A stretch of DNA of 6,046 nt from Eubacteriales bacterium (GTDB lineage: Bacteria; Bacillota_A; Clostridia; Lachnospirales; Lachnospiraceae), in NCBI GenBank assembly GCA_030527765.1, contig JAUNAE010000236.1:1-6046 (forward strand), read 5' to 3'. Within the stretch, counting starts at the first letter, position 1. Each line of letters opens with the position of its first letter. Below are positions 3,845 through 4,828 of the stretch, one piece after another. Position numbers and translations under genes: made by a program. Below the pieces are notes generated by a model, which was given only the letters and a program-made list of their open reading frames with translations, was not told the origin of the DNA and did no database searches.

Positions 3845-3984
3845 AACGTAAGAGTAGGAATTATGGATTTTGGAATAAGAAGGACGATATTTATCGCCGT
3901 GGAAGGGAGGTGAGAAAAGCTTATGGCAAGACAAAAGACTACAGAAAACCGCCAAAATGGATCAGTCGCAGACGCTGCGGTTAA
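3841..3984 (+). CDS. Small basic protein between helicase loader and parB
   Basis: A 47-residue protein starting at GTG 3841 (GTGA overlap with the loader stop) and ending at 3984, 62 bases into parB in another frame. It begins MKRKSRNYGFWNKKDDIYRR and is very rich in Lys and Arg (about 19 of 47), with aromatic residues and no hydrophobic segment, so binding to nucleic acid is conceivable. I do not recognise a family. The evidence for a real gene is the perfect AAAGGAGG at correct spacing. The overlap with parB and the possibility that the Shine-Dalgarno is a by-product of coding sequence are the reasons for caution. It might instead be a short translated frame that couples loader translation to parB. 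Confidence 0.5.
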   Translation: MKRKSRNYGFWNKKDDIYRRGREVRKAYGKTKDYRKPPKWISRRRCG

Positions 3985-4828
3985 GGTAGAAAGACTGGAT
4001 ATTCCGCTATCAGAGCTGCATCCCTTTGAAGGACATCCGTTTAAGGTATTAGATGATGAGCTGATGGAGCAGACAGTGGAAAGTGTCAAGATGATTGGCA
4101 TTGTAGAACCGTTGATTGTTCGTCCGGATCCAGAGGGCGGTTACGAGGTAATATCCGGACATCGGAGACTTCGAGCAGCAGAACTTGCTGGACTGGATAC
4201 CGCTCCGGTGGAAGTCAGGGAAATGGACGATGATCAGTCGATTATTTTTATGGTGGATTCCAATATCCAAAGAGAAGCAATTCTCCCCAGTGAGAGGGCA
4301 TTTGCCTACAAGATGAAACTGGAAGCTGTAAAACATCAAGGGAATAGATCAGATCTAACTTTGGACCAACTTGGTCCAAAGTTATCAGCTGCGGAAAAGG
4401 TGGCTGCGGATGCAAATGATAGTGGAACTCAAGTAAAAAGGTTTATCCGTCTCACGAATCTGATTCCTGAAATACTGGATCAGGTGGATGAAGGAAAAAT
4501 TAAATTTAATCCGGCAGTTGAACTGTCCTATCTGAAACCGGAGGAACAGAAGGATTTCCTGGAGGCAATGGATTATGCCCAGACTACACCATCGTTATCA
4601 CAGGCACAGCGGATTAAGAAGATGAGTCAGGAAGGCTCCTGTAATCTGGATGTGATGTGTAATGTCATGAATGAGATCAAGAAGGATGATATGACGAAAG
4701 TAACTCTGGATCATGCGACGATTCGGAAGTATTTCCCAAAGTCCTACACGCCAAAACAGATGCAGGACACAATCATTAAGCTGTTGGATCAGTGGCAGCG
4801 AAAGCGCCAGAGAGATATGGAACGTTAA
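3923..4828 (+). CDS. parB: ParB/Spo0J-family protein
   Basis: A 301-residue protein. Residues about 22-117 are the ParB N-terminal nuclease/CTPase-like domain, with IPLSELHPFEGHPF (27-40), IVEPLIVRP (60-68), SGHRRLRAAELAGL (78-91, the GHRR phosphate-binding motif) and the SNIQRE box (113-118). Residues about 120-235 are the helix-turn-helix DNA-binding part (SERAFAYKMKLEA, then GTQVKRFIRLTNLIPEILDQVDEGKI). The basic C-terminal segment (262-301) may dimerise. ParB proteins bind parS sites and help segregate or organise DNA; no ParA is in the window, so a non-segregation role is also possible, as often with ICE-borne ParB. GGGAGGTGAG (3905-3914) is 8 bases before the ATG. Codons 145-154 are written by a perfect 29-base palindrome. 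The stop is 16 bases before the next start. Confidence 0.9.
   Translation: MARQKTTENRQNGSVADAAVKVERLDIPLSELHPFEGHPFKVLDDELMEQTVESVKMIGIVEPLIVRPDPEGGYEVISGHRRLRAAELAGLDTAPVEVREMDDDQSIIFMVDSNIQREAILPSERAFAYKMKLEAVKHQGNRSDLTLDQLGPKLSAAEKVAADANDSGTQVKRFIRLTNLIPEILDQVDEGKIKFNPAVELSYLKPEEQKDFLEAMDYAQTTPSLSQAQRIKKMSQEGSCNLDVMCNVMNEIKKDDMTKVTLDHATIRKYFPKSYTPKQMQDTIIKLLDQWQRKRQRDMER
4346..4356. repeat. Short palindrome AGATC-A-GATCT
   Basis: AGATC and GATCT are 5-base inverted arms around one A. Alone this is unremarkable, but it abuts, and shares its last base with, the larger palindrome that follows, giving two palindromes in 39 bases of parB. Confidence 0.5.
4356..4384. repeat. Perfect 29-base palindrome inside parB, candidate protein-binding site
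   Basis: TAACTTTGGACCAA (4356-4369) and TTGGTCCAAAGTTA (4371-4384) are perfect 14-base inverted arms around a single C. Inside are two self-palindromes, TTGGACCAA (4361-4369) and TTGGTCCAA (4371-4379), whose centres are 10 bases apart, one helical turn. The element is much larger than codon choice would produce by chance. It may be a parS-like site bound by the ParB it lies in, an operator, or an RNA hairpin. It is unlike the classical chromosomal parS (TGTTTCACGTGAAACA). No second TTGGNCCAA was seen elsewhere in the window. Confidence 0.75.

Follow-up and report, generated by a model that had tools for sequence, protein, structure and literature searches.

The parB gene of a mobile element, in a 6,046-nucleotide stretch of DNA (the window), contains within its own coding sequence a perfect palindrome, which we interpret, with a probability of about 0.85, as the cognate parS-like site at which the element's own ParB docks. 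Sequence evidence from homologous loci established constraint at the DNA level, compensatory change between the arms, and coupling of the variable core of the site to the ParB recognition helix on a tree. From these results we infer that ParB physically binds the site, and comparison of the sequences indicates that the specificity of ParB-site pairs is fast-switching. In the mechanism that we propose, each half-site would be read by one ParB helix-turn-helix (HTH); constant ends and a constant centre would provide a common frame, while a 5-bp core would set specificity, and ParB would most likely load on its own 25-bp site. Since the site lies in the linker codons just before the HTH, lock and key would fall within about 100 bp of each other and could be transferred together as a single block, in keeping with the numerous core changes described below.

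A palindromic site within the parB gene

The inverted repeat consists of two 14-nt arms (4356-4369 and 4371-4384) that are 100% complementary, are separated by a 1-nt spacer and lie within the parB frame (Table 1). A sequence-only reading of this DNA had described such a perfect palindrome and judged it improbable by chance, and both points held: 3.65e-5 perfect repeats with 14-bp arms are expected in 6046 bases of the window's composition when the spacer is 0-1, and 2.0e-4 when it is 0-10. When the window peptide was fixed and codons were drawn from the gene's own usage, none of 4000 sequences was equally palindromic. The same reading had resolved the palindrome into two smaller ones with centres 10 bases apart, and hence into two TTGGNCCAA units occupied by two dimers. 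The smaller palindromes, TTGGACCAA (4361-4369) and TTGGTCCAA (4371-4379), are present in the window at that spacing, but they are not general among homologues and result from the window's own core. The two-dimer interpretation was rejected, because homologues show constant ends and a constant centre with one variable 5-bp core per arm, the symmetry of a single 25-bp site; the window version reads ACTT TGGAC CAA C TTG GTCCA AAGT.

Table 1. Features of the window that bear on the palindrome.
Feature	Position	Strand	Further evidence
parB, 301 codons; ParB_N domain, HTH	3923..4828	+	Pfam, NCBIfam, fold matches
Codons 141-154, disordered linker before the HTH, houses the palindrome	4343..4384	+	AlphaFold2 pLDDT <50
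Whole inverted repeat, 14-bp arms, 1-nt spacer	4356..4384	.	
25-bp site of the family ACTT-N5-CAA-N-TTG-N5'-AAGT	4358..4382	.	Homologues and covariation
Left-arm variable core, N1-N5 = TGGAC	4362..4366	.	
Right-arm variable core GTCCA, reverse complement of the left core	4374..4378	.	
Codons 168-179, second HTH (recognition) helix	4424..4459	+	AlphaFold2 helix, column scan, tree test

Elsewhere in the window, three 15-bp direct repeats of the CCGACTACGG type (2634-2678) lie inside the gene of an HTH_36 protein, which also holds a near-palindrome at 2619. It is possible that the repeats of this region (2619-2690) are iterons of an origin inside a rep gene.

Conservation of the site among homologues

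We collected 89 loci, comprising the best 80 of at least 564 relatives from a scan of genome_contigs and nine from viral_contigs; the set includes many near-identical copies (e.g. L032-L048). Under strict criteria, which required 12-bp arms around a 1-nt spacer and allowed no more than one mismatch, 86 of these 89 best-matching loci had a palindrome at the corresponding position of parB. The exceptions were L083, which has 10-bp arms, and L088 and L089, for which mapping failed. The shared pattern is the one given in Table 1, with N5 cores that differ by type (for example CTCGC, CCCGA, CGGCC, CTGTT, CGCCG and GTGGC) and are nearly always self-complementary. Ten relatives (42-65% identity) came from annotated records; seven had arms of at least 12 bp with at most one mismatch, one had 7-bp arms and two (L091 and L099) had none. 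L099 carried no site in its linker or anywhere else in the 8.8 kb examined. We also counted unique linkers with arms of at least 12 bp, at most one mismatch and a spacer of up to 4. Among loci found by protein search only, 97 of 120 linkers contained such a palindrome, versus 1 of 722 control segments taken from those genes; after addition of loci fetched by the site pattern the figures were 125/159 and 2/958. A palindrome of 8 bp or more was absent from 15 of the 120 protein-search linkers. In viral_contigs TTTGGACCAANTTGGTCCAAA had no match, and the loci drawn from 14-base pattern matches there (among the matches listed) were taken as likely mostly chance; L120-L198 were left out of the ParB analyses by locus number, and L199-L238 were put through the ParB score filter and contributed 0 of 128 tree rows.

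Several other features of these loci were observed. Nine (L322, L335, L354, L358, L360-L362, L364 and L376) have a palindrome with another centre, CCASTGG or CAGCCTG, and their ParB linkers usually carry Pro in place of Gln. In the ParBs of L240, L292, L293, L295, L296 and L297, long additional insertions separate the palindrome codons from the HTH, which again suggests that the linker is tolerant. A second recurrent palindrome, (C/A)AGAATCGTGA...TCACGATTCT(G/T), lies outside parB in the Faecalibacterium-type loci L018, L023, L027, L029, L030, L069, L075 and L081. The search flagged one in-frame TGA in the ParB matches of L330, L332 and L333.

The ParB protein and its probable role

The window ParB contains a ParB_N domain (Pfam PF02195, E 1.5e-18) and matches NCBIfam parB_part (E 4.1e-24). 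Its best fold matches are ParB, Noc, Spo0J and KorB, including the Spo0J-parS complex 4umk, with the loose superposition (rmsd 5-16 Å) that flexible domains would lead one to expect. The HTH helices occupy residues 155-163 and 168-179 of the AlphaFold2 model (mean pLDDT 81.3), and the core-coupled residues of the recognition helix are G168, T169 and K172. The stretch GHRRLRA resembles the motif GxRRxxA; CTP binding and hydrolysis are putative activities of this protein.

If the palindrome is the docking site of ParB, the loaded protein, a CTP clamp by family, would on balance serve the element, when excised or replicating, in partition and incompatibility. Alternatively, ParB may dock there for expression control, as KorB, VirB or BisD do, rather than for partition. 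The neighbours of parB in the window are HTH_36 and IstB/DnaC-like genes, and we found no ParA gene in the window, which covers 3.9 kb before parB. Orphan ParBs are linked to mobile elements, with BisD and VirB acting as expression regulators, in the portion of PMC12704722 considered here. Against this alternative, at least 33 of the 126 homologous loci that could be used (counted without deduplication) have a ParA-type motif upstream of parB, and we regard expression control as a credible but clearly less probable role.

Coupling of the core to the recognition helix

The core-helix rule was first seen in 105 unique ParBs and written down, and later rows served as the test set. With 21 perfect cores as units, G at N4 occurred with Arg or Lys at residue 169 in 8/8 versus 0/13 (p 4.9e-6) and CC at N4N5 with Asn or Ser in 6/6 versus 0/15, in tests that were mostly post hoc. 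The enlarged set held 173 unique ParBs, 129 of them with a CAANTTG-type site. A tree of 128 of these, selected on length and on the helix being found, was built without the linker and HTH columns; on this tree the symmetric cores are of 28 kinds and changed at least 67 times. The rule that G at N4 goes with Arg/Lys169 held in 128/128 ParBs, in 22/22 independent tree pairs (p 4.8e-7), and in 40/40 rows fetched after it had been written. CC accompanied Asn/Ser in a mean of 18.4 of 19 tree pairs with none opposite, and G at N5 accompanied Asp/Glu in 8-9 of 9. GG at N2N3 went with Lys172 in 12 of 15 pairs, again with none opposite; this rule was broken in 3 of 22 rows, and it held in three of the six GG rows that came later.

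A scan of well-filled alignment columns, using one ParB per core and excluding the palindrome's own codons, identified residue 169 as the best column for N4 and N5, residue 168 for N3 and A157 for N2, while N1 had no clear partner column. By our own reading of the alignment, residue 168 probably equals or neighbours ParB position 173. According to the portion of PMC7383237 considered here, that position governs the choice between parS and NBS, and ParB specificity depends on a small number of residues within and close to the recognition helix. Tyr-Lys at 168/169, found in 13 ParBs, accompanies cores ending in GA: CTGGA in four, a GGGA site inside the gene in L092, L338 and L359, and a GGGA site outside the gene in L289, L368, L369 and L372. 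For two of the 13 (L099 and L373) there was no site in the stretches searched. Among 120 listed proteins (10 not parsed) one, P0086, was discordant, with a CGGCC-type linker peptide and a CTGAC-type helix; P0017 and P0024 look mixed. At the protein level, near-identical ParBs within P0018-P0120 form two alleles in which linker peptide and helix differ together (SAQVGPK with SKSQVKR, SDQVGQK with SKTQVQR), a pattern such as a block swap would give.

The coupling could in principle be indirect, if the site were read by another protein (a recombinase, a Rep protein or a regulator) and its link to the ParB helix reflected hitch-hiking of neighbouring DNA. Site and helix, separated by about 100 bp, probably move together. 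However, the coupled columns are base-facing HTH positions rather than the nearest codons, the best N-terminal columns reaching at most 0.25 bits versus 0.77 for residue 169. The coupling also persists where the site lies outside the gene. The ParBs of L270, L271, L273 and L246/L284 lack the linker insert and have sites flanking the gene instead, with CGGGC accompanying Lys169 in L270, L271 and L273 and TGCGT accompanying Arg in L246. We consider another reader very improbable.

Selection on the DNA sequence

The 120 genes used for a synonymous-codon null were selected because each has a site with no more than two mismatches. When synonymous codons were drawn at random, 6.89 mismatches were expected, compared with 0.42 seen, and P was below 0.01 in 120/120 genes. 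Across a chosen set of 24 sites, pairing was found in 98.6% of cells; double changes occurred in 6 of 12 pairs and one-sided changes in none, all four pair types were found in columns 6 to 9, and pair covariation was 0.488 versus 0.081 when shuffled. Because palindromy exceeds the codon null and the sequence shifts while remaining paired, selection acts on the DNA. The sequence-only reading had named, as an observation that would count against it, close homologues that keep the peptide with the palindrome broken. Examined statistically, palindromy was instead far above what the peptide allows, and this result, together with the covariation of core and recognition helix, supports its suggestion of a self-encoded parS-like site.

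A hairpin of the parB mRNA or of single-stranded DNA, acting in translation control or recombination, would need nothing but a stem; a perfect stem could form here, and stems tolerate sequence change. Such a structure does not predict the coupling to the HTH, and numerous copies of these sites lie outside genes. Wobble-type, one-sided changes were lacking in the 24 sites, whose arms remain complementary right up to a single central base, and the mismatches over the 120 genes comprised 13 G.T (wobble on coding-strand RNA) versus 26 A.C and 11 others. The mRNA hairpin was rejected on these mismatch types and on the absence of one-sided changes, and a hairpin of either kind is highly improbable. 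Chance or a by-product of the peptide, whose frame T-S-x-Q-[VLI]-x-x-K is common around the palindrome, has a negligible probability given the synonymous-codon null, which refutes it, the number of repeats expected in the window, the covariation, and the excess of linkers over control stretches.

Sites outside parB and mixed arrays

Exact matches to the pattern numbered 24 in G162 (which includes L270), 17 in G145 (L271) and 16 in G057 (L273); the matches listed extend across about 23 to 35 kb. They mostly have the core CGGGC, with some CGGGT, CGGGA or CGAGC halves. The L273 element is ICE-like, since coupling-protein and TrbL genes are present, and ICE-type elements carry many copies of a single type, the opposite of the mixed arrays described below. 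L104, L108, L117 and L280, with a relaxase and GGGA-type sites, were considered as ParB-less IMEs and rejected because a ParB may be near: a Tyr-Lys ParB lies within about 17-30 kb in G003 (L117 and L372) and G137 (L276 and L289), so these loci may be ICE parts and were not counted as hijackers. One type can occur twice per genome (G003); strict incompatibility is therefore not evident, and strict exclusion of types within a genome was not seen.

Clusters of sites of differing types occurred in stretches that, over the 2.8 to 30 kb examined, have no ParB-like frame. The L100 array has 10 sites of 10 kinds, and L385 has six sites of six kinds at an even spacing of 32-35 bp. L111 and L226 each have four sites of four kinds, with one site in common; L306/L380 has four sites of three kinds, L390 three of three and L389 two of two, L101 has two kinds, and L377 has one site and a partial one. 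Left out of these counts are one L100 site, which lies at 1898, about 360 bp away from the others, two L380 sites (12719 and 12755), the sites of L103 and L278, and an imperfect third palindrome of L101. Of loci from the 14-base viral_contigs pattern, L226 alone, picked by a later search, was examined for arrays. At L380:12719-12779, two more array-like sites lie beyond the restriction genes, hence sites are present on both sides of the cargo. Shuffles of seven array loci gave no arrays. A core known from a ParB was present on at least one half of 16 of 21 array sites (position-wise null mean 8.9, P 0.0015) and of 11 of 15 later ones (null 6.4, P 0.017). Matches to a close-spaced pair of sites occurred in 2/297, 2/299, 2/391 and 1/247 genomes of overlapping sets, one of them judged chance, and matches to the reversed pattern in 2/297, 1/299, 0/391 and 0/247. 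Given these forward and reversed counts, the evidence is the content of each array match and not the count. The match in G379 was not accepted, and neither was that in L391, which consists of a known locus's parB site and a half-like neighbour.

Genes near the arrays of L100, L101, L111, L226, L380, L385, L389 and L390 were checked with PADLOC and Pfam. L100 is accompanied by the Gabija genes GajA (E 5.8e-216) and GajB (1.9e-211), L101 by mREase_IV (1.1e-227) and a candidate PDC-S26, and L380 by an OLD-like ATPase, REase_II, a C5 methylase and a relaxase; a serine recombinase also lies by L380, as judged by a look at the sequence. An RM specificity subunit neighbours L385, a weak LmuA match (9.9e-7) L111, and a Mu Gp27-like gene L226. 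No defence-type gene was found among the proteins tested from L389 and L390.

Sites in ParB-less elements may use or titrate the ParB of other elements, and the mixed arrays could possibly be hijack or decoy arrays. We tentatively suggest, at somewhat less than even odds, that they form a specificity library, in which ParB-less mobilizable elements, prophage-like contigs and defence islands keep centromere mimics. Such mimics would serve in riding on, or acting against, the ICEs circulating in their hosts; the rapidly changing site within parB would represent the opposing side of the contest. One form of such a library would be a defence that hits a rival's segregation rather than its DNA or RNA. 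It is also conceivable, though unlikely, that the arrays are not directed at foreign ParBs and are relics or operators of a local regulator. Several array sites carry 2-3 mismatches, only seven or so arrays were found, and 5/21 and 4/15 array sites match no known core. Against relics or operators, the sites within arrays differ in type, their ParB-known cores exceed the null, and the spacing in L385 is even.

Comparison with known systems

The system resembles the ParB-parS systems of chromosomes and plasmids (Spo0J, Noc, KorB) in its ParB_N domain and fold and, by our reading of the sequences, probably in a palindrome read by the HTH. It differs from them in that the 25-bp site lies in the parB linker and, within a single clan, comes in at least 28 symmetric core types. 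The chromosomal parS consensus is unlike the frame of this site, in agreement with the sequence-only reading. In Bacillus subtilis a parS also lies inside spo0J, but that site is common to many others and is not variable.

The other systems are compared here as far as the portions of the cited papers considered describe them. The parS of Alphaproteobacterial repABC plasmids, GTTNNNNGCNNNNAAC, likewise combines a constant frame with a variable self-complementary part, and extra parS displace the parent plasmid (PMC9040568). Its frame differs from ACTT-N5-CAANTTG-N5-AAGT, and the window, where parB has HTH_36 and IstB/DnaC-like neighbours and no RepC module is present, does not belong to repABC. 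The portion of PMC9040568 considered does not describe repABC sites as being retained within repB and covarying with that gene. The IncC plasmid has fourteen parS scattered over it, and the mobilizable element SGI1 carries two parS mimics that use the helper's ParB and destabilise the helper (PMC10954446). SGI1 may by analogy be a precedent for the mixed arrays, although its mimics are of one type, whereas the arrays hold many types and would act through a putative helper. In Clostridium perfringens, diversified ParR-parC centromere specificity has been proposed as a basis of compatibility (PMC9426499); that system is ParMRC, with about ten families and a site apparently not inside the reader's gene. 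BisD of ICEclc and other orphan ParBs are ParB-fold proteins of integrative elements that act in expression control, and the portion of PMC12704722 considered describes no embedded variable site such as that found here. The titles and abstract openings of the open-licence papers searched yielded no description of a co-varying parS inside parB or of mixed parS arrays.

Implications

Many natural helix-site pairs are fused here in one gene, which would make the ParB recognition code directly readable and testable. These pairs could reveal by what means related mobile elements evade or enforce incompatibility, and the core could serve for typing the ICEs and IMEs of the clan. Centromere mimicry would extend beyond the SGI1 case if the mixed arrays do act on foreign ParBs.
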